Part shown: positions 2 through 40,157 of the stretch, piece after piece
Position numbering within the stretch: position 1 is the first letter of the stretch
How the letters are laid out: the number at the start of each line of letters is the position of its first letter
Source of the DNA: a virus
Strand: one strand, 5' to 3'
Length of the DNA: 40,157 nucleotides
Virus record (IMG/VR): IMGVR_UViG_3300006174_000003
Span: 1 to 40,157 of that record
Made by a program: the position numbers and the translations under genes
The notes under the pieces: model-generated
Database searches by the model: none
Told to the model about the DNA's origin: nothing
The model's input: only the letters and a program-made list of their open reading frames with translations

Positions 2-586
2 CACTACAAAGAGCTCACACAGGTCATCATAGATGGTGGCCTGTGGGAGCCGTACGGGCAGAAGCCAGACCAGATCGTCTACTCTGCAATGTCACAGGAC
101 ATAAAGAGGCGTGGCGAGTGGTCTGCATTCCGTCTTATAAACACAGGCGACAAGAAGACCGGCGGAGTATTCTGCTCGTCGAATGTCAAAGGTGTCGAAG
201 AGGTCGCCAAAGATTTGGGCGAACTTACTGTGTCACAACCATCAATCAGACGTAAAGGTGACACAGACAAGGATGTGCAGCGGCGCATCAGCATGCTTGA
301 GGCGAACGCAAGGTGTGGAAACTGCACACACATAGAGTACATAGGCCCCGAGAAGTACGCCATGCGGTACGGCGCATGCAATGCGTGGCCAAACAGTGGC
401 CAGCCATACGTGTTCAACCATCAGGAGCCATGCCCACTGCACAGGAAAGCAAGCCTTGAGCTTATGGAGGCAAGGCAGCGTGACAGGGATGCCAACAAGA
501 TGATACTCATTGAGCATGGCATGTTGCGCATAGATAGTGATGCCAGAGTGGTATCGAAAGTGAGAAAGAACAATGCCATTAGGTGA
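2..586 (+). CDS. HARE-HTH domain protein with C-terminal zinc-binding cysteines (5' partial)
   Basis: The frame is open from base 2, so the gene starts left of the window. The translation before the first internal ATG (position 89) matches the HARE-HTH winged-helix domain: it begins HYKELTQVIIDGGLW, continues with a stretch of the type SAMSQDIKRRGEWSAF, and ends RLINTGDKKTGGVF (about nt 2-175). HARE-HTH domains are known from eukaryotic chromatin proteins and bacterial restriction or modification proteins, and have been proposed to sense modified DNA. The C-terminal half has a regular CX2CX17CX17C pattern followed by PLH, which suggests one bound zinc ion. The 3' end overlaps the next gene by 14 nt, so both are probably translated together. 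Its position upstream of nucleotide-modification genes fits a DNA-binding role on modified phage DNA, but that is inference. The domain call is fairly sure; the function is not known. Confidence 0.75.
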   Translation, partial: HYKELTQVIIDGGLWEPYGQKPDQIVYSAMSQDIKRRGEWSAFRLINTGDKKTGGVFCSSNVKGVEEVAKDLGELTVSQPSIRRKGDTDKDVQRRISMLEANARCGNCTHIEYIGPEKYAMRYGACNAWPNSGQPYVFNHQEPCPLHRKASLELMEARQRDRDANKMILIEHGMLRIDSDARVVSKVRKNNAIR

Positions 587-4410: not shown

Positions 4411-5709
4411 ATGGGAGAACTTGGCAACATAAGAAAGCTCTCGGAGCTTGAGAAACTTAGGGTAACATCATTCAAGGTGTTCGAAGAATGCCCCCACACG
4501 TGGGCCGCGCAGTACCTTGGCACGACCAAGGGCGAGGACTCAAAGTACTCCAAGATAGGCACGGCCGCGCACAAGATCATAGAGAACTTCCTGCTGGACC
4601 TGTTCGAGCTGCCGAAGCCCAACGAAGACCAGGCCGTATATATTGCACTGTCTGACGAAGAGAAGAACAAGATCAACACAAAGCAGTGGGCGATCATACC
4701 AGAAGAGGAGCAAGAGAACCTCCAAAAATACCTGGAGACGTATGTAACGATGCAGGAAGAGGGGTATGTTCTACTCGCACTAGAGCATGAAATGATCATA
4801 ACCATACCAGGCTTCCCCGTGTCAATCATCGGCCACATGGACGCTATATTCCTGACGCCTGGCGGATGGATACTGATCAACGACCACAAAACCAACCGCC
4901 AGTACAACAAGCAGAAGTGGTGGAGTGAACAGTTCCAGCAGCTTCTGTACGCGTGCATGGCACGCATCATGTACCCCGGGAAGAACGTGAGGTTCCGGAT
5001 AGGGTACCCGAACATACCACTCGGCGAAGACGAGAAGAACTATGTCGATTGGGAGACAGACGCCAAAGATGACATGGCACTTACAGAGAGGCTCATGAGG
5101 ATGTGGGCCTCCGCCGAAGAGTATGAACTCAATGGTGTGTGGCCCAAGGTCGTCAATGACAACTGCCGTTGGTGTCCGCTTCGCTCTCATTGTAATACCT
5201 ACGACATGGCCACATCCGACTTCACAAGGACACTTGAGAGGCGCACGACCGAGTGGTCCACTGGCGAGCAACTTGAGTTTGCAAAGACGTGTGCCAAACT
5301 CGTAGCCAGCAAGATAGCCGAGCTAGAAACAAAGCTGTCCGAGGAGATAGGTCAGGAGGGCAACAAGATACGGCAGGGTAACAATGTCTGGTGGCTTGAG
5401 ACCAAAAGCAAACGTGTGCTTGATGCCAGAACAGCACTACGGCTCATAAGCGAGCAGGTGCGGCGGGTGCCAGACCTCGGGCCGGTCATGACAGAGTTTA
5501 TGGACGACGTCTTCAGTGTCAAGGTCACAGGCATTGACAAGTTGACTAAGTCTACCAAGGCATTTGGTGAACTTAGCAAGGCGATGAAACTGCAGAAGAA
5601 TTCCAAACCGACACTTTTGACAGAGCCATCTGTCAAGTTCGCCAAGGAAGTCGAAGGGCCAACGCTGGCCAAACTACTAGAGGGTACAGGAGAAGGGGAA
5701 CCATTTTGA
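4411..5709 (+). CDS. Cas4/RecB-like PD-(D/E)XK exonuclease with probable Fe-S cluster
   Basis: This 432-residue protein has the PDDEXK_1 nuclease layout: SFKVFEECPHTW near the N-terminus, H54 in GTAAHKIIENF, D144 in GHMDAIF, the D158-H-K160 catalytic pair, and Q175 in FQQLLYACMA (QxxxY). Four cysteines, C27 and C252/C255/C261 (CRWCPLRSHC), match the arrangement that holds a 4Fe-4S cluster in Cas4, AddB and Dna2. The likely role is 5'-3' or end-directed DNA exonuclease in phage recombination or replication. The C-terminal 150 residues are helical and include a segment that resembles a phage Cas4 extension of unknown role. It follows the polymerase by 8 nt with an AGGAG site. No CRISPR array is nearby, so an adaptation role is unlikely. 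Confidence 0.85.
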   Translation: MGELGNIRKLSELEKLRVTSFKVFEECPHTWAAQYLGTTKGEDSKYSKIGTAAHKIIENFLLDLFELPKPNEDQAVYIALSDEEKNKINTKQWAIIPEEEQENLQKYLETYVTMQEEGYVLLALEHEMIITIPGFPVSIIGHMDAIFLTPGGWILINDHKTNRQYNKQKWWSEQFQQLLYACMARIMYPGKNVRFRIGYPNIPLGEDEKNYVDWETDAKDDMALTERLMRMWASAEEYELNGVWPKVVNDNCRWCPLRSHCNTYDMATSDFTRTLERRTTEWSTGEQLEFAKTCAKLVASKIAELETKLSEEIGQEGNKIRQGNNVWWLETKSKRVLDARTALRLISEQVRRVPDLGPVMTEFMDDVFSVKVTGIDKLTKSTKAFGELSKAMKLQKNSKPTLLTEPSVKFAKEVEGPTLAKLLEGTGEGEPF

Positions 5710-6239
5710 ACATAGTTGAGATTATAGAAGGTCTGCACCCACAAGATGTCGGCATGGGTTTAAACACCCGTGCCGCACTTGGTGTCATAGAAGAGGTGGG
5801 TAACCTCGCTGGCTCGCATCTAATGGCACTTAATCAGATGGAGTCTTACGATAACAAGTGGAAGATCATACTTGGCATACAAGGGTTCCTTGGCCAGCTT
5901 GCACTCGCCGAGATGAAACGTGGTGGTGACAATGATCGTGCATGTGCGACCATAGAATGTGATGCATTGTGTGCAATTGGGCAACTGCTTGAGTTATACC
6001 AATCAGGCTACAAAGGCAGTACACAGAACATGTTCGAAGACATATGGGTTGGCACGAACATCAAAGATGGTCCATCATATCCAGAGACGACCGGACAACC
6101 AACGATACGCGCATCAGATGCCGTCATAAAACTTACACAGTATGCATCATGTATACAAGAGAACTTTCACGCGACGCTTGTGAACAGGGTGTATGAGCAG
6201 TTAAGTGACAGAGAAGGTGACGGGCAACACGAAGAATGA
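5706..6239 (+). CDS. Hypothetical protein, possibly MazG-like
   Basis: This 177-residue helical protein has a TTG start that overlaps the preceding TGA (TTGA, 5706-5709), preceded by AGGAGAAGGGG. An alternative start is the ATG at 5752. Residues about 22-45 (RAALGVIEEVGNLAGSHL) resemble the EExxE helix of all-alpha NTP pyrophosphohydrolases, but the second acidic helix typical of MazG is not clear, so this is only a suggestion. The stop overlaps the ATG of the following aGPT-PPlase-like gene (ATGA, 6236-6239). Its place beside nucleotide-metabolism genes supports a nucleotide-related role. Confidence 0.6.
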   Translation: MNIVEIIEGLHPQDVGMGLNTRAALGVIEEVGNLAGSHLMALNQMESYDNKWKIILGIQGFLGQLALAEMKRGGDNDRACATIECDALCAIGQLLELYQSGYKGSTQNMFEDIWVGTNIKDGPSYPETTGQPTIRASDAVIKLTQYASCIQENFHATLVNRVYEQLSDREGDGQHEE

Positions 6240-7120
6240 ATCACAATGTAAAACTTGAAGGCCCGGACTGGGATGCATTCTTCGGGTTTGTGTACGAGCG
6301 TGCAATGATACTATTCCGCCGAGAGTGTGGCATGGCGCGACCGTGGACCGACGACCCTATACTACAGGTGGGCAAGTTCGGCAACGTGTGGCGTAAGGTA
6401 GATAAAGGTACAGAATGGGAACTTCGTCTATTGGATGATAAGGATAAATATGAACAGGCGAAAAGTATCCTTACATATCGACACAATCTCATACCATGGA
6501 CAACCATATCTATACTTGGTAATGTAGAATTTGCCTATGCAGATGAACACATACAAGGGCCTATCTTCTCAGATGTCATAAAGATATATGAGGGCATGAA
6601 GGTCAAGCCAGAAGATGCCACACGTGAGGACTGGTTCAACTATGCACTGCAGCATGCAGATGATGTGAACATTGGCCTGCACAGGTTCGTCAACAACTGC
6701 CTACTAAGGACGGACGACCCAAGGTACGTGATGGCGATGATCATGGACATGTTCCCATTGCTCGGCGAGTTCAAGTCGTACGAGGTGTTCACGTCACTAA
6801 CATACTGCGACTGGTTCCCCTATGACGAGAACTCATACCCGCATGTTGGTCATGGGTCACTGGAGTACCTTAGGCGCCTGACCAACGACTGGTACACCAG
6901 GGACGACCTAATGTGGCTGTATCTTGTCGAACTGGCGCCGAGGGTGAGGCGAGTGCTTCACAAGATGGACATGCCATGGCCGACACGTCTCGGCGGCCTG
7001 TTCACATGCAGGACCTTCGAAGACTGCATATGCGAGTGGCGGAAATACGACCAAGTCAAGCATGGGCTGCGAGACAACAAGCCGTGGCCCGATAACCTAA
7101 GGAGATGGGACGTTGAGTGA
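6236..7120 (+). CDS. Alpha-glutamyl/putrescinyl thymine pyrophosphorylase-like protein (HMUDK helical domain family)
   Basis: This 294-residue protein shows the signature of the aGPT-PPlase / 5-hmdU DNA kinase helical domain family: YERAMILFRR (20-29), PWTDDPILQ (36-44), KFGNVWRKVDKGTEW (47-61) and, later, LLGEFKSYEVFTSLTY (175-190) followed by HVGHGSLEYLRRL. Family members have a DNA-glycosylase-like helical fold and are found in phages with hypermodified thymine, where they are proposed to act on (pyro)phosphorylated 5-hydroxymethyl pyrimidine in DNA. Here the domain stands alone, with no P-loop kinase fused. Local base composition falls near 6400-6570 and returns later. The gene overlaps both neighbours by a few bases. 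The family call rests on motif recognition; the substrate is unknown. Confidence 0.8.
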   Translation: MNHNVKLEGPDWDAFFGFVYERAMILFRRECGMARPWTDDPILQVGKFGNVWRKVDKGTEWELRLLDDKDKYEQAKSILTYRHNLIPWTTISILGNVEFAYADEHIQGPIFSDVIKIYEGMKVKPEDATREDWFNYALQHADDVNIGLHRFVNNCLLRTDDPRYVMAMIMDMFPLLGEFKSYEVFTSLTYCDWFPYDENSYPHVGHGSLEYLRRLTNDWYTRDDLMWLYLVELAPRVRRVLHKMDMPWPTRLGGLFTCRTFEDCICEWRKYDQVKHGLRDNKPWPDNLRRWDVE

Positions 7121-7664
7121 AACACAGACAAGGGATTATACTATCCCTGACAATATAATAGACATGCAACAGATGGTGCATAACTTCATGGTGGCAGGTG
7201 AGCAGATAGTCGGGTATAGCCCGGGCCTGCGAGACCAGCTACTGCGGATACGTCTGATGAGTGAGGAGTCGGCCGAGACTTGTCGCGCAGTATATAATGG
7301 CAATGTCACTGAGGCGATAGATGGTCTTTGCGATATACTGTATGTCGTACTTGGCACGGCTGTCGCATTTGGCATAGACATATACCCATTCTTTGCTGAG
7401 GTGCACAGATCTAACATGGCAAAGATCGACAGTGTGACCGGCCACCTCGTCAAGGATGAGTATGGTAAGGTCATAAAGCCGAAGGGATGGACACCTCCTG
7501 ACATAGCCGGTGTATATCAGAAGGTGTACGGCTGCAGCATAGACACCGCGCAGGTTCAGGAGCAGTCGCATGACGAGGAATGGATGAGTGTGATACGCCT
7601 TGCCAAGGCGAGTGGCCTTCGACCGGCAGACATTGCACATTACATAATCAAGAAGGAGGGTTAG
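7113..7664 (+). CDS. MazG-type nucleotide pyrophosphohydrolase
   Basis: This 183-residue protein has a clear all-alpha NTP pyrophosphohydrolase core: the EESAETCRAVYNG helix, then AIDGLCDILYVVLGTAVAFG with the second acidic pair (ExxD), then EVHRSNMAKI and the KPKGWTPPDI ending typical of the phage phosphoribosyl-ATP pyrophosphohydrolase-like group. Such enzymes hydrolyse (d)NTPs to (d)NMPs and pyrophosphate and can remove an unwanted nucleotide from the pool. The start is TTG at 7113 with AAGGAG eight bases upstream, overlapping the previous stop. The extra C-terminal 50 residues (from about 130) are helical and not recognised. The nucleotide substrate cannot be read from sequence. Confidence 0.85.
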   Translation: MSETQTRDYTIPDNIIDMQQMVHNFMVAGEQIVGYSPGLRDQLLRIRLMSEESAETCRAVYNGNVTEAIDGLCDILYVVLGTAVAFGIDIYPFFAEVHRSNMAKIDSVTGHLVKDEYGKVIKPKGWTPPDIAGVYQKVYGCSIDTAQVQEQSHDEEWMSVIRLAKASGLRPADIAHYIIKKEG

Positions 7665-8198
7665 TTGGAAGACAACAAAGAATTGCCATTGCCTTTCTGT
7701 GGTGACTGTGGCAAGAAATTTACTGCCATACCAAGGTATGGCCAATCAATAGCCATATGTGGTAATAAAGACTGTAAAGACTTTGGTAAGGACAAAGGTT
7801 TTGCTGGTGCATTCGACTGGACACAACATACAAATGTTGTTGAAATAAAAAGAGCTGTTAATCTAGAAGGTGTTGGTCCAGATGCACCAACACTTGATAA
7901 TGGTATAGAAAGTCATTCACCATACAGATTTGATCTAATGCCACCACTTGCAATGGCTTCTATTGCAAAAGTACTTGCACATGGTGCAAAGAAATATGGT
8001 GACTGGTCTTTCTTAGACCTACCATCACAGTCATCACTTAACCATATGCAACAACATGTATATGCATATATAAGTGGTGACCTACAAGAAGGTGACCATA
8101 TAGAACATGCAAGACATGCTGCATGCCGTGCGGTGATGTGGCTCGAGCTTCTTGAGCGTGAGCGGCTAGTCAACGAGGCAAGAGAGGAGCCATTCTAA
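7665..8198 (+). CDS. Zinc-ribbon plus dATP/dGTP diphosphohydrolase N-terminal-type domain protein
   Basis: This 177-residue protein starts at TTG 7665, five bases after AAGGAGG. Residues about 12-40 contain FCGDCGKKF and ICGNKDCKDF, a small zinc ribbon. Residues about 85-165 match the DUF5664 / dGTP_diPhyd_N family: SPYRFDLMPPLAMASIAKV, then HGAKKYGDWSF, HMQQHVYAYISG and HIEHARHAACRAVMWLEL. That family includes MazZ-type dATP/dGTP pyrophosphohydrolases linked to 2-aminoadenine DNA in cyanophage S-2L. The stretch 7680-8130 is visibly richer in A and T than its neighbours, with A/T in most third codon positions, which suggests recent acquisition. Whether it acts on purine nucleotides here is inference. 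Confidence 0.75.
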   Translation: MEDNKELPLPFCGDCGKKFTAIPRYGQSIAICGNKDCKDFGKDKGFAGAFDWTQHTNVVEIKRAVNLEGVGPDAPTLDNGIESHSPYRFDLMPPLAMASIAKVLAHGAKKYGDWSFLDLPSQSSLNHMQQHVYAYISGDLQEGDHIEHARHAACRAVMWLELLERERLVNEAREEPF

Positions 8199-8605
8199 TG
8201 GCGACACCAATACCTGACGACGCCATCGTGCAGGTCAACCGGTACATCTGGAAAGGCTGCATAGGCGTCGTGCAGCACACAGACAAGCAGAAGTTCGGCA
8301 CGGTGCCAAACTACTTCGTCGACCTTACAAGGTACGGCGTACTATGCTTCAAGCACGAGGAGCTAATCGTGCTGACGGATGAGCAGCTTGAGACGGGTGA
8401 GCTGCCGCTTGAGATAGTCGACCCGCACATGGCACTCTTCCAGTTCGAGCTTCGCATGAAGCAGCAGTGGAAGAGACTGATCGACGAGGACATCGAGTTC
8501 CTGCACAAAAGGATTAAGGAGTGTGAAGAAGGTGGCACGTTTACGCACGCAGATCGAGATAGATTACGCGCGACTGCATCTCGCTACGATCTGGGGCTTG
8601 GATAG
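8198..8605 (+). CDS. Hypothetical protein
   Basis: This 135-residue protein is not recognised. The N-terminal 65 residues are beta-rich (DAIVQVNRYIWKG, then GVVQHTDKQKFGTVPNYFV) and could form a small SH3-like barrel. The C-terminal half is helical and charged. The ATG overlaps the TAA of the preceding gene. Its last 74 bases lie under the start of the deaminase gene in another frame. It is conserved in operon position only as far as this window shows; no function is proposed. Confidence 0.7.
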   Translation: MATPIPDDAIVQVNRYIWKGCIGVVQHTDKQKFGTVPNYFVDLTRYGVLCFKHEELIVLTDEQLETGELPLEIVDPHMALFQFELRMKQQWKRLIDEDIEFLHKRIKECEEGGTFTHADRDRLRATASRYDLGLG

Positions 8606-9038
8606 CTCCAGAGACCCGGAGTGGGCCATAGGCGCCATACTCGTACACGAAGACGAGCGACAGGTTAGCATGGGATACAACGGTCTGGTCCGCGGCGTTC
8701 CGGAGATACCCGAGAACTGGGAGAACAGGTACAAGAAGAAACTCGTTGTGCACGCCGAGAGAAACGCAATGATGTTTTCCCAGTTCGATATGAGGGGATC
8801 TACCCTGTACGTGCCGCTTAAGCCGTGTTCGTTCTGTCTCGGCGACGCCGTCAACAACGGGATAAAGCGTGTCGTGTGGCTTAAGGACCCAGCCGGTGGT
8901 GCGTCAGAGGCGTACTACGGCCCGGAGTGGGACGAGTTCGCCAAGCTTGTAGACTGCTGCGAACTACCCATGGACATGCGGTCAGAAATACTCCTAGAGT
9001 CCTACGGGCTTGATGGATCAATAAGAAGGAAACGATAA
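8532..9038 (+). CDS. dCMP deaminase-like (cytidine/deoxycytidylate deaminase family)
   Basis: A zinc-dependent deaminase of about 168 residues. The catalytic HAE motif is in VVHAERNAMMF and the zinc-binding PCxxC is in PLKPCSFCLGDAVNNG, both in the order and spacing of dCMP deaminases. SMGYNGLVRGVPE is the substrate-loop segment of the family. It would convert dCMP to dUMP and so feed the thymidylate synthase-fold enzyme encoded immediately downstream. The start is uncertain. GTG 8523 is only one base from the AAGGAG at 8516-8521, so GTG 8532 (10 bases away) is preferred. The stop overlaps the ATG of the next gene (TAATG). The gene is nested over the last 74 bases of its upstream neighbour. 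Confidence 0.88.
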   Translation: MARLRTQIEIDYARLHLATIWGLDSSRDPEWAIGAILVHEDERQVSMGYNGLVRGVPEIPENWENRYKKKLVVHAERNAMMFSQFDMRGSTLYVPLKPCSFCLGDAVNNGIKRVVWLKDPAGGASEAYYGPEWDEFAKLVDCCELPMDMRSEILLESYGLDGSIRRKR

Positions 9039-9997
9039 TGCTTGGTATGATTGAAGCGGACAGCATGGACGACCTGTACGCAGGTCTGTACAACATAGTG
9101 GCATCTAATGGTATGGACTATTCGCCGAGAGGTAAGGCCTGCATTGAGTTGCGGCCATTCGTATTCCAGATAAACATGCCACAGTACGGGTTATATACCG
9201 GCCGAAGTCGGCGACTTAACTACAGGTTCCTTGCCATAGAGACGCTATGCTACCTGTCTGGTATAAGCGGCAACTTGCACACACAACTCATACTCGATGC
9301 CAACAAGAACATGGCATTCGCCGTCAACCCAGAGACACAACTGTTTGATGGTGCATATGGCCCTGCACTTCGACAGTCTATGGGTGTAGTCATAGACACA
9401 CTCAAGAAGGACCTGTACTCAAGGCAGGCGGTCGCGTCTATATGGTCGTACACGACCGCCAAGTCGCATGTCGCGGGCGACAGCAAGGATGTGCCATGCA
9501 CATGTCTGCTGCAGTTTCTCGTAGAGAAGAACAGGCATGGTGGAAGTGACATGCTGTCCATGAATGTGTACATGCGGAGTAACGACCTCAACTGGGGCTC
9601 GCCGTACGATGTGGCAGCCTTCTGTATCATACAGACGTTTGTTGCTGACATACTCGGCCTTGAGTATGGGTACTACAACCACATGGCCGGCAGCCTGCAC
9701 TTCTACGAGGATGGCAACTCCGATGGTGAGAGGCCACCAACAATAGCGGATCCATCCGTGGAGAGGTGGATACCAGAGTTGCACCTGCCAAGCATAGCTA
9801 ACTGTGACATATCCTCATGGGACGAGATTGAGGATGTGACGCGCGACATGTGCGAGCACATACTCCTGCAGAGAAATGCTGGCGTCGACTGGAAGGATGT
9901 CGAGTTGATCACCAGCAAAGTCCATGGCATACAATTGATGCAGAAGACATTCCAGGACCTTATCCGTTTTAGACACGAGAAGATTGAGAAGCCATGA
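9038..9997 (+). CDS. Thymidylate synthase-fold enzyme (TS / dCMP or dUMP hydroxymethylase family)
   Basis: This 319-residue enzyme transfers a one-carbon unit from methylene-tetrahydrofolate to C5 of a pyrimidine nucleotide. TS-fold landmarks are YGPALR (107-112), RQAVASIW (129-136), the nucleophile C154 in DVPCTCLLQF, RSNDLNWGSPYD (180-191), and H221-x-Y223 in GSLHFYE. The position that is Asn in classical thymidylate synthases (in PFN) is Asp191 here (PYD). Asp at this place is the hallmark of T4-type dCMP hydroxymethylase and is also seen in some phage TS-like proteins. The product could therefore be 5-hydroxymethyl-dCMP, 5-hydroxymethyl-dUMP or dTMP. It lies directly downstream of the deaminase. 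The family assignment is confident; the product is not. Confidence 0.9.
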   Translation: MLGMIEADSMDDLYAGLYNIVASNGMDYSPRGKACIELRPFVFQINMPQYGLYTGRSRRLNYRFLAIETLCYLSGISGNLHTQLILDANKNMAFAVNPETQLFDGAYGPALRQSMGVVIDTLKKDLYSRQAVASIWSYTTAKSHVAGDSKDVPCTCLLQFLVEKNRHGGSDMLSMNVYMRSNDLNWGSPYDVAAFCIIQTFVADILGLEYGYYNHMAGSLHFYEDGNSDGERPPTIADPSVERWIPELHLPSIANCDISSWDEIEDVTRDMCEHILLQRNAGVDWKDVELITSKVHGIQLMQKTFQDLIRFRHEKIEKP

Positions 9998-37872: not shown

Positions 37873-37877
37873 GCCTC

Positions 37878-37906
37878 ATTATACCATGTGTTGGGCGGGA
37901 AGTCAA
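37878..37906 (-). promoter_or_regulatory. Sigma-70 promoter for the minus-strand structural operon
   Basis: Read on the minus strand: TTGACT (37906-37901), a 17-base spacer, and TATAAT (37883-37878). The predicted start is at about 37871-37872, on the A of the terS ATG. I see no other promoter of this quality between here and 10574, so this may drive all head, tail and lysis genes. Confidence 0.8.
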
Positions 37907-38093
37907 CTGGCGAGAGAAAATAGTTTGTTAGGGGTTGGGCGCTGTGTGAGCGACATCAACGTAGGTCCCAAAAAACTCATGTGTGCTAAACCAAGGACCG
38001 TCCGGAGGATTTCATTCATTTCTCTATATATAGATCATGGGGTCGTTCATATGAAATAGAAAAAATCTTCATTGATTTTTCTTCAAAAAATCA
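37907..38093. other. Intergenic part of control region, no gene seen
   Basis: This is the left part of the divergent control region. It contains no convincing gene on either strand and is moderately AT-rich toward its right end. Apart from the minus-strand promoter before it and the plus-strand promoters after it, I see only short AT tracts and no clear hairpin. Confidence 0.5.
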
Positions 38094-38122
38094 TTGACAT
38101 TCATTTCAATCTATGATATCAT
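38094..38122 (+). promoter_or_regulatory. Upstream tandem promoter P1
   Basis: TTGACA (38094-38099), a 17-base spacer and TATCAT (38117-38122). The spacer ends ATCTATGA, as does the second promoter 202 bases downstream. The first transcribed bases carry CAATGATC and two TGATCA palindromes, a probable regulator site. Confidence 0.75.
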
Positions 38123-38130
38123 CTTATCAA

Positions 38131-38390
38131 TGATCAATCATGATCATTCATCATAGAGTCAAGAAATTCTCTATTGATTATTCTATCTCACCATGATCAA
38201 ATCATCATAGATATGATTGATCATTCTTCGAACCTTGATAATTGAATATCGATCATTCATTGAAAAAATGATCATAAAGATTTTTCTGAAATCTATTGAC
38301 GATTTCAAAAATCTATGATATAATGAATTCAATGATCGAGATCGAAACAAACTTGATCGATCAATCTCAATCATTGATCAATCGTGATCA
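38131..38390. repeat. GATC / TGATCA-rich cluster
   Basis: Twelve GATC sites occur in 260 bases, seven as TGATCA (at 38131, 38141, 38194, 38218, 38269, 38375 and 38385). About one GATC would be expected by chance. The cluster surrounds the two promoters and reaches the ribosome site of the next gene. It could be operator sites for a repressor, or an origin-like region. Confidence 0.7.
38296..38324 (+). promoter_or_regulatory. Downstream tandem promoter P2
   Basis: TTGACG (38296-38301), a 17-base spacer and a consensus TATAAT (38319-38324). It shares AATCTATGATAT and the following CAATGATC with P1, as if the unit had been duplicated. Transcription would give a leader of about 95 bases before the ATG at 38426. 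Confidence 0.85.
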
Positions 38391-38425
38391 ATGATATTAT
38401 CTTAATCTCGAAAGGATTAAAACAA

Positions 38426-38860
38426 ATGTCGAACGATATCAAGTCCATAGTGGACTCATCCAAGTTGATTGAATTCATCAACAACCTCCCCCTGGCTCGT
38501 CAGATCCCTGTCGACAAGAGGATGACTGTTGAGATGACCAATCCCGAAACTGGAAAGAAGTTCGTCCCCAAGACTAAGGCGGTCGAGGGTATCGAAGAGG
38601 ATCGCTCAATCACCTGGTCCTTCGCCAACTTCACTTCGAGTGACGATATTCGATGGAAGATGTTGGCCAAGAAGGCGAATATCACCGCGGCCGAACTCGG
38701 GGCCCGAATAATCATGGGCTGGTTCGAGGACAACCGTGAGGCCATCTACGAGTTCTGTGGGGATGTCAATGAAGTCGAACTATCCGAGGAGGATATCGAC
38801 AAGAAGATGAAGGCCCTTCAGAAACAGATCGAGAAGTTGACTTCCCTACGGTCCAAGTAG
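38426..38860 (+). CDS. Hypothetical protein, probably highly expressed
   Basis: This 144-residue soluble protein is not recognised. It begins NDIKSIVDSSKLIEFINNLP. A polar middle has KKFVPKTKAVEGIEEDR, then SDDIRWKMLAKKANITAAE, and a charged C-terminal coiled coil (LSEEDIDKKMKALQKQIEK). Codon choice differs from the rest of the phage: ATC is used for most isoleucines, whereas the other genes use ATA heavily. Two strong promoters, AAAGGA nine bases before the ATG, and a stable hairpin after the stop all point to high expression. It may be an early takeover or DNA-binding protein; that is inference. Confidence 0.8.
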   Translation: MSNDIKSIVDSSKLIEFINNLPLARQIPVDKRMTVEMTNPETGKKFVPKTKAVEGIEEDRSITWSFANFTSSDDIRWKMLAKKANITAAELGARIIMGWFEDNREAIYEFCGDVNEVELSEEDIDKKMKALQKQIEKLTSLRSK

Positions 38861-38866
38861 TCGACC

Positions 38867-38894
38867 GGTCCCTCTGGGGAAATCCAGAGGGACC
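38867..38894 (+). terminator. Long stem-loop after the highly expressed gene
   Basis: GGTCCCTCTGG (38867-38877) pairs perfectly with CCAGAGGGACC (38884-38894) around a six-base loop, seven bases after the stop. No T tract follows, so it may be a partial terminator or an mRNA-stabilising end that lets some transcription continue into the next small gene. Confidence 0.55.
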
Positions 38895-38923
38895 ATTCCC
38901 AAAAAATTCGCCGAGGAGTAAAC

Positions 38924-39052
38924 ATGCTAGATGAACACGATGATAAGTTCCCGCGCCAGGTGGCAGCGATCGCCATACTCGCGGCCGTGGTCGGGGTCAT
39001 AATCCTCGCGCTGCTACTCGACATGGCAAAAATGCCGCCATTGTCCTTCTGA
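38924..39052 (+). CDS. 42-residue single-span membrane protein
   Basis: This short gene starts at ATG 38924 with GAGGAG seven bases before it. It encodes LDEHDDKFPRQVAAIA followed by a hydrophobic segment of about 20 residues (ILAAVVGVIILALLLD) and a short tail (MAKMPPLSF). The charged N-terminus and a single span suggest insertion in the host membrane. It lies between a stem-loop and a strong terminator, in the same unit as the gene before it. A superinfection-exclusion or lysis-control role is possible, but no family is recognised. Confidence 0.7.
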   Translation: MLDEHDDKFPRQVAAIAILAAVVGVIILALLLDMAKMPPLSF

Positions 39053-39060
39053 CCCAGGAT

Positions 39061-39097
39061 AAGCCCGCATACATCAGTACTGCGGGCTTTTTCTTTT
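39061..39097 (+). terminator. Rho-independent terminator
   Basis: AAGCCCGCA (39061-39069) and TGCGGGCTT (39081-39089) form a nine-base-pair stem with an 11-base loop. The run TTTTCTTTT follows directly. It closes the unit started by P1/P2. Confidence 0.92.
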
Positions 39098-39110
39098 CGA
39101 ACTTCATCAA

Positions 39111-39426
39111 AGCGCTAGGCGCCGCAAGGCAGGGCGCTGGGCGCCAGACACCATCTTTTTAAGCGCTGAGCGTATGTATTAAGCGCTAAGCGCTAAGCAT
39201 TAATATAAAGCGCTAAGCGCTAACATTAAGCACCCATATAAAGCGCTGAGCGTTAAGCGCCTGTTCAAGCGCTGAGCGTACAGCATACCTCACAAGTTGT
39301 CGCCGAGACACGGCCAAAGCGCCAAAGGCTGGCCCGATACAGCGCTCAGCATGCCCAAATAGACTGCGACGTATAGATAGATCGGTCCATATAGACAGCG
39401 TAGTCTACTTTAAAGCGCTAAGCGCT
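39111..39426. repeat. AGCGCT palindrome array
   Basis: There are eleven exact AGCGCT palindromes at 39111, 39162, 39182, 39189, 39209, 39216, 39242, 39268, 39341, 39414 and 39421, with near-copies (AGCGTT, AGCGCC, AGCGTA) between them. Three copies are the 13-mer AGCGCTAAGCGCT (39182, 39209, 39414), and three more are AGCGCTGAGCGTW (W = A or T). Two further AGCGCT lie at 39868 and 40115. The stretch has no gene. It resembles iterons or clustered operator sites. Confidence 0.85.
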
Positions 39427-39453
39427 ATATAACTATTGACATCATATATGTGA

Positions 39454-39482
39454 TTGACATTTTTAACATTATGTGGTATAAT
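39454..39482 (+). promoter_or_regulatory. Consensus sigma-70 promoter
   Basis: TTGACA (39454-39459), exactly 17 bases, TATAAT (39477-39482): a full consensus match. It follows the last AGCGCT pair by 28 bases and gives a very short leader of about 13 bases before the ATG at 39502. Confidence 0.9.
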
Positions 39483-39501
39483 AGACTATAGGAGAATAAC
39501 A

Positions 39502-39840
39502 ATGAGTATCAAGTTCATACCAGCATTAAAAATAGATGATATATGTAATACGACAGGGCACAAGACATATCTAGATGATCCAACATCACTTAATGATACA
39601 CTAGAAAGATTTGGTGTTAATGCAAGAAATATAGTATCTTTTAAGTTGTATAAGAAAGGATTGATCACCGCTGTTATAATCAAGAGTAAATTTAACAAGC
39701 ATTATAGATATATGCTATTGTTAGACAATGATAATAGTAGCTGTGAATTGAGAACATATGTATACAAATCAAATACTGAACGTGCACTTGCCAACATCTT
39801 CGGTATACATCACATCCAACTACAGTGGTATATAATATAA
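39502..39840 (+). CDS. Hypothetical protein, AT-rich gene
   Basis: This 112-residue protein is not recognised. It begins SIKFIPALKIDDICNTTG, has a central basic/hydrophobic part (VSFKLYKKGLITAVIIKS, then NKHYRYMLLLDNDNSS) and ends FGIHHIQLQWYII. The gene is clearly richer in A and T than the rest of the window. AGGAG lies seven bases before the ATG, and a consensus promoter lies right upstream. The AGCGCT array before it may control it. A small early or takeover protein is a reasonable inference. Confidence 0.75.
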   Translation: MSIKFIPALKIDDICNTTGHKTYLDDPTSLNDTLERFGVNARNIVSFKLYKKGLITAVIIKSKFNKHYRYMLLLDNDNSSCELRTYVYKSNTERALANIFGIHHIQLQWYII

Positions 39841-39874
39841 AGAATATTATATATATTAAGACACATGAGCGCTT

Positions 39875-39911
39875 CAGTGAACTTAATCGACTTTTCATCT
39901 AATGTTCACTG
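39875..39911 (+). terminator. Inverted repeat after the AT-rich gene
   Basis: CAGTGAAC (39875-39882) and GTTCACTG (39904-39911) form an eight-base-pair stem with a 21-base loop, 35 bases after the stop. The stem sits beside another AGCGCT (39868-39873). It may end the transcript or bind a regulator. Confidence 0.4.
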
Positions 39912-40157
39912 ATGGTAGTATACCAGGAAAATACCCCCTCTCTCACACACACATAGCGTCATAATAATCATTACTAACTAAAATATATAACATATACACA
40001 CCTATGATTTGAGAGGGGGGGCACTATCCTGGGATAGGGCCATCATCAAACTGGCATCAAGTGTATATGAATATTCACGTTGTCACAACGATGTCGTTTG
40101 TCGATCATTTTTAGAGCGCTGAACGTTCATAGTTATGTAATTTTGTTTTTGTTGATG
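39912..40157. other. Non-coding end with long inverted repeat
   Basis: No gene is supported. CCCCCTCTCTCA (39934-39945) and TGAGAGGGGGGG (40010-40021) are inverted copies with one mismatch, which is a G:T pair. Outside them CCAGGA (39923-39928) faces TCCTGG (40027-40032). Between the arms are 64 AT-rich bases. One more AGCGCT lies at 40115. The window ends within this region. Confidence 0.6.

Follow-up and report, generated by a model that had tools for sequence, protein, structure and literature searches.

The 40,157-base IMG/VR record IMGVR_UViG_3300006174_000003, which derives from an uncultured phage and was analyzed over its full length (hereafter the window), carries a cluster of nucleotide and DNA-modification genes in which a protein of the HMUDK_hel family (PF18723) accompanies a thymidylate synthase (TS)-fold enzyme with the diagnostic residues of a deoxycytidine monophosphate (dCMP) hydroxymethylase. 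This pairing suggests that a helper protein previously associated with thymine modification also serves cytosine chemistry. Our favored interpretation, which we hold with moderate confidence, is that the cluster produces 5-hydroxymethyl-dCMP, that the phage DNA thereby acquires 5-hydroxymethylcytosine (5hmC), and that the helical protein then selects 5hmC for a transferase. All genes that a preliminary description of this DNA had named in the cluster were recovered by profile matches, overlapping or abutting on the plus strand at the coordinates given in Table 1, and the five listed enzymes all score above the curated profile cut-offs.

The base specificity of the TS-fold enzyme was assessed by comparison with characterized relatives. 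Its Asp191 falls into the column occupied by Asp186 in MilA, Asp179 in T4 gp42 and Asn177 in E. coli ThyA, and it carries Ser181 and Arg129, the deoxyribose state, as opposed to Ala176 and Lys133 of MilA. Asp as determinant for cytosine, and Ser/Arg versus Ala176/Lys133 as determinants for deoxyribose versus ribose, have been published for MilA (PMC5175136). As Asp191, Ser181 and Arg129 are all in the published dCMP state, the enzyme is very probably cytosine-directed, in line with the dCMP-hydroxymethylase-like character that the preliminary description had ascribed to it. The D179N exchange in T4 gp42 decreases kcat up to about 3600-fold (PMC6400193), indicating that Asp is decisive for dCMP, and for relatives of the Asp type hydroxymethylation of dCMP is established (PMC5175136, PMC6400193). 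The predicted nucleophile Cys154 and catalytic Glu68, both also found in T4 gp42, and the sugar-contacting residues His221 and Tyr223 are present. The best sequence match in the PDB is the CMP 5-hydroxymethylase MilA (E = 6.4e-16). The C-terminal tail critical for TS is absent from T4 gp42 (PMC6400193), and no obvious TS-like tail is seen at the C-terminus of the window enzyme. The base made is most likely 5hmC, with the 5-hydroxymethyl product being a prediction, as sequence cannot tell methylation from hydroxymethylation of dCMP. The same column holds Asn in the dUMP hydroxymethylase gp29 of SPO1 and in the enzymes of phages M6, Sonora and Goe26, and across about 100 loci it is either Asn or Asp (Asn-type and Asp-type enzymes, respectively). 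Asp also occurs at this position in four phage genes annotated as thymidylate synthase (L003:4367-5179, L008:8354-9172, L009:8938-9747 and L017:5426-6292), which, judged by this residue, probably encode dCMP hydroxymethylases.

The 294-amino-acid protein encoded upstream matched HMUDK_hel as its only profile, and not ADDT. Its AlphaFold2 model, which was built from a 58-sequence alignment of relatives, reached a mean pLDDT of 88.9. When compared with BFVD by Foldseek, the best match was the 5-hydroxymethyl-deoxyuridine (5-hmdU) DNA kinase of SP10 (probability 1.00, TMq 0.75), and this match and those to proteins of phiRSL1, Lucky3 and phiW-14 had a probability of 1.00 and E-values from 8e-8 to 5e-6. 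Thus, profile score (Table 1) and predicted fold bear out the earlier designation as an aGPT-PPlase/HMUDK-helical homologue, and the structure search places the protein inside the HMUDK family, not outside. VIA-align superimposed 179-211 residues on the 8-oxoguanine DNA glycosylase MjOgg (Z 9.5) and on the 5-phosphomethyl-dU glycinyltransferase PUGT (Z 9.4). Foldseek against the PDB gave no significant match (E above 0.5), and the HMUDK_hel alignment, used as a profile query against the PDB, returned nothing at E 10. For a model made entirely of helices such Z scores are modest, and no significant Foldseek match to the PDB was obtained; we therefore regard the likeness to HhH DNA glycosylases as a lead only. 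Out of 18 columns conserved in at least 90% of 75 HMUDK_hel rows, 14 are kept in the window protein (R22, D40, F48, N50, R53, D56, R82, F179, G205, G207, C266, E267, K270 and Y271). We propose that the helical protein is a recognition subunit, which would pick the hydroxymethylated base, a 5-hydroxymethylpyrimidine, in DNA.

Single-sequence searches with the helical protein and the TS-fold enzyme detected no close relatives among viral contigs. With an alignment as query, 402 relatives of the helical protein were found in viral contigs, 80 of which were kept together with seven near Microbacterium phages. Local profiles detected the helical protein in 100 loci and the TS-fold enzyme in 98. The HMUDK kinase was seen in 21 loci, Ploopntkinase3 in 12 and a glycosyltransferase resembling TAGT in 36; all of these counts include a few phage references lacking the helical protein and some near-copies. 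When 50 records chosen for lack of a local kinase were searched over their whole length, PF18748 was found in one, PF18751 in one and TAGT in 27. The kinase-less state is therefore common in records with HMUDK_hel, and the missing kinase of the window is not anomalous. Members of the family seem to cooperate with transferases of more than one class. The helical gene directly adjoins the TAGT gene in 13 of the 27 deduplicated loci having both and the kin1 kinase gene in 9 of 14 loci, and it is fused to kin1 in Goe26, as is expected of an exchangeable catalytic partner. In L047 (9995-11658), the helical and TAGT genes overlap by 4 nt and are followed by an Asn-type hydroxymethylase gene, an order that recurs in many contigs. 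Among loci with neither kinase nor TAGT, a protein of about 350 amino acids was considered as a recurrent third partner; it is encoded near the helical gene in L026 (10835-11884), L031, L032 and L090 and could be another partner, but has no significant Pfam match, so we make no claim for it.

In the window itself, the P-loop motif GxxxxGK[ST] occurs among ORFs (open reading frames) of at least 60 amino acids in all six frames only in the terminase; we therefore rejected the idea that a frame without annotation might conceal a P-loop kinase, in agreement with the initial observation that no kinase is visible. Matches to the kin1 and kin3 kinases, to ADDT (at E 1e-5) and to TAGT (PF20691; no search by name for T4-type GT-B families was made) were likewise absent from the 40 kb, although each of these could be encoded off-contig, and no amino-acid transferase was found. 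The record lacks end repeats and begins within a HARE-HTH-like gene, so that a gene missing from the window is not necessarily missing from the phage. It is probably a fragment cut inside this gene and lacking its left end, which we could not extend (no match by exact 25-mer). Absence of a kinase stands as an observation, with two qualifications: kinase-less records are common in the family, and the combination of HMUDK_hel with an Asp-type enzyme is not unique to the window but is already contained in database records of cultured Microbacterium phages.

Next, we asked whether the helical protein tracks the base. When the Asn/Asp states of the hydroxymethylases encoded alongside were mapped onto a tree of 75 deduplicated helical domains, 4 changes were required, as compared to a mean of 13.8 after shuffling (none of 500 shufflings was as low), and a slower tree of 70 rows likewise gave 4 changes. 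The partner state (kinase, TAGT or none) required 20 changes versus a shuffled mean of 36. In the subset of 47 rows for which both traits are known, base state changed twice (shuffled 8.4) and partner state eight times (shuffled 15.7). Both traits are clustered on the tree, and base state is more conserved than partner, a pattern that fits a role of the helical protein in base recognition. Position 65 of HMUDK_hel is mostly N, D or H in Asn-type clades as opposed to L, R, Q, M or A in Asp-type clades, a suggestive but unproven separation.

The helical proteins of the window and of loci L022, L023 and L029 form one group with 100/99 support, which is to be read with caution given its long branches. 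All four members are accompanied by an Asp-type hydroxymethylase; the L022 record reads MRSSDAWLGIPYD. In L029 (13719-15269), the Asp-type gene is split at the catalytic Pro-Cys by an intein-like insertion that contains an HNH endonuclease. The record of L022, designated G001, is 46 kb long with a 121-base end overlap and looks like a complete genome. Both G001 and G005, the record of L029, encode HMUDK_hel, an Asp-type enzyme, dCMP deaminase, MazG (38% identity between G001 and the window), a thymidylate-kinase-like protein and a C5-cytosine methyltransferase homologue. While MazG is common to all three, the last two proteins are present in G001 and G005 but not in the window. Either is a candidate for the missing partner, and both may be encoded in the part of this genome that the window does not cover. 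Their genes adjoin the dCMP cluster in G001 and G005 (L115:6088-8185 and L109:9524-12368), and the thymidylate-kinase-like protein has a long C-terminal extension lacking assignment. Next to their own dCMP clusters, phages AXL_3 and ct3Et533 likewise encode a methyltransferase, an NTP-PPase and a thymidylate-kinase-like protein.

The thymine-hypermodifying phages M6 and relatives, SP10-like Goe26, Sonora and phiW-14 resemble the window in having HMUDK_hel and a TS-fold hydroxymethylase, and M6 and Sonora also share the dCMP deaminase. However, M6, Goe26, Sonora and phiW-14 employ a P-loop kinase, either separate or fused, and an Asn-type dUMP hydroxymethylase, and several of them have an ADDT as well, whereas the window has an Asp-type enzyme and no detectable kinase or ADDT. 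In such systems, further modification follows phosphorylation of the base within DNA by 5-hmdU DNA kinases (PMC6449724, PMC7653180). LuckyBarnes and similar phages with TAGT have HMUDK_hel but no kinase, like the window; yet LuckyBarnes combines an Asn-type enzyme with two TAGTs. In T4, the base position likewise holds Asp, and GT-B enzymes glucosylate 5hmC (PMC13216743); unlike in the window, no HMUDK_hel is known there. The cultured Microbacterium phages BouleyBill, Koji and Neferthena possess HMUDK_hel, an Asp-type TS-fold enzyme and MazG, as does the window, but differ by Ploopntkinase3 (BouleyBill, Koji) or TAGT (Neferthena) and by belonging to a different HMUDK_hel clade. Their database records annotate the pair as thymidylate synthase and as pyrophosphorylase or hypothetical protein. 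The IMG/VR relatives G001, L023-L025 and G005 belong to the HMUDK_hel clade of the window and, like it, encode an Asp-type enzyme, dCMP deaminase and no known partner transferase. Our literature search retrieved no paper on HMUDK_hel together with a dCMP hydroxymethylase; as the original thymine-pathway papers (Iyer 2013, Lee 2018, Lee 2022) lay outside this search, earlier notice is possible.

In the favored pathway, the MazG-type enzyme, whose substrate is deduced, would convert dCTP to dCMP, which the Asp191 enzyme would hydroxymethylate using methylene-tetrahydrofolate. Kinases of the host or encoded outside the window would raise 5-hydroxymethyl-dCMP to the triphosphate for use by the phage DnaE polymerase, while dCMP deaminase and the dGTP_diPhyd_N protein, presumably a nucleotide-pool enzyme, would adjust the remaining nucleotide pools. 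Following replication, the helical protein would bind DNA through its glycosylase-like fold, select 5hmC and present it for further modification to a transferase, which may be encoded outside the fragment or be of an unrecognized type.

Several points weigh against this pathway. No kinase of either known family and no TAGT was found in G001 (46 kb) or G005 (73.6 kb), which were searched whole, and with no transferase of the searched families in these two or in the window, further modification may not happen. Z scores near 9 count as weak when the model is all-helical. The window HMUDK_hel differs from its family at four conserved columns (V114, S187, H206 and Y211), and its sequence sits on a long branch. 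Labels can cluster on a tree through common descent of the phages instead of through function; the partner labels are noisy, absences being unreliable in fragments. Finally, MazG and deaminase genes are common nucleotide genes of phages that do not modify bases.

The lack of known kinase and TAGT families in the window and its larger clade relatives G001 and G005 would also be explained by plain 5hmC replacement, with the helical protein having some other task on 5hmC DNA, such as its protection or repair, or being left over from a former hypermodification system; phage AXL_3, in which no HMUDK_hel protein was found near a similar dCMP cluster, fits this as well. We consider this unlikely, though it is the alternative to be taken most seriously: the helical protein sits with a transferase in many relatives, and retention of family-invariant polar residues in a divergent clade argues against a leftover. 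The other possibility raised by the preliminary description, a thymine pathway proceeding via 5-hydroxymethyl-dU, kinase and transferase with parts missing, is disfavored. A kinase like those of M6, SP10 and phiW-14 could lie beyond the cut left end, dCMP deaminase would supply dUMP, and the HMUDK_hel proteins of characterized phages belong to thymine pathways (PMC6449724). In this case, however, Asp would have to be a misleading substitution, against which the kcat loss of D179N counts, and Asn- and Asp-type partners split with just 4 changes on the tree, the window's nearest relatives all being of the Asp type. We rate a thymine pathway as improbable and retain the cytosine reading, which is favored by the dCMP residues and the all-Asp clade of four.

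Two further explanations appear less probable still. Asp at the base position would suit any enzyme acting on C5 of dCMP, including a methylase that makes 5-methyl-dCMP, as in Xanthomonas phage Xp12, for a phage DNA with 5-methylcytosine. Xp12 DNA is fully 5-methylcytosine (PMC7653180), which we counted for this explanation. Its chance is nonetheless slim, as the nearest PDB sequence is the hydroxymethylase MilA, a TS-like tail is not obvious and the HMUDK_hel partner is known from hydroxymethyl-based systems. The slimmest chance falls to ordinary nucleotide-pool metabolism for fast replication, with HMUDK_hel present fortuitously. Genes for MazG, dGTP_diPhyd_N and dCMP deaminase are indeed widespread in phages not known to modify bases, but ordinary dTMP synthesis is not expected of an Asp-type enzyme, and HMUDK_hel and TS-fold enzymes occur together in nearly all of about 100 loci.

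A broader idea, more doubtful than the favored pathway, is that HMUDK_hel does not belong to kinases in particular. It would instead be a shared subunit that selects the base, with versions suited to uracil or to cytosine, and its catalytic partners (two kinase families, TAGT and perhaps others) would have been swapped several times. The window's clade would then use this subunit on 5hmC with an undescribed chemistry, since no known kinase or TAGT is encoded by a member whose genome looks complete. Solitary TAGT enzymes were flagged in a 2026 paper as potential novel transferases (PMC13216743), and a subunit common to kinases and glycosyltransferases would, if real, give them a partner. Thymine hypermodification by kinase and transferase has been worked out; a 5hmC-based equivalent, if true, would be a new branch in the arms race between phages and restriction and would yield new DNA-modifying enzymes. 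The cultured Microbacterium phages make the cytosine reading testable now.

The left part of the window carries replication and nucleotide genes on the plus strand, i.e. those for a DnaE-type polymerase and a PD-(D/E)XK exonuclease and the modification cluster, while the remainder, mostly on the minus strand, encodes lysis, tail, head and terminase functions; structural labels other than terminase and lysis come from reading the translations. Ribosome-binding sites within the cluster are mostly good, and dCMP deaminase may start at 8523 or 8532, close to one of them.

Table 1. Coordinates of the cluster and adjoining features in the window.
Feature	Position	Strand	Evidence
Gene cut by the contig left end	2-586		HARE-HTH-like N-terminus, E 0.0018, 19 bits, under curated cut-off 25.9
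177-aa ORF, probably helical; 4-nt overlap with start of HMUDK_hel gene	5706..6239	+	
HMUDK_hel (PF18723) protein, 294 aa, all-helical	6236..7120	+	Pfam E 3.8e-24, 86 bits vs cut-off 25
MazG/PRA-PH type nucleoside triphosphate pyrophosphohydrolase	7113..7664	+	PF01503 E 1.5e-14; phrog_671 E 3.4e-33
dATP/dGTP diphosphohydrolase N-terminal-type (dGTP_diPhyd_N) protein	7665..8198	+	PF18909 E 1.2e-16; phrog_801 E 8.8e-13
135-aa ORF within the cluster	8198..8605	+	No Pfam match, no phage match (tblastn)
dCMP deaminase	8523..9038	+	PF00383 E 2.4e-14; phrog_174 E 2.4e-27
TS-fold enzyme, predicted dCMP 5-hydroxymethylase	9038..9997	+	PF00303 E 6.2e-17
Asp191 codon GAT, base-selecting residue of the TS-fold enzyme	9608..9610	+	Alignments

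The 177-aa ORF preceding the helical gene had no significant match in Pfam, PHROG or phages (tblastn); it is MazG-like by eye only, and its single-sequence structure model was uninformative (pLDDT 37). At the opposite end of the window, positions 37873-40157 are richer in AT (41% GC versus 49-54% elsewhere). Long ORFs are few there and short palindromes of the AGCGCT type numerous; this region is perhaps regulatory or an origin.

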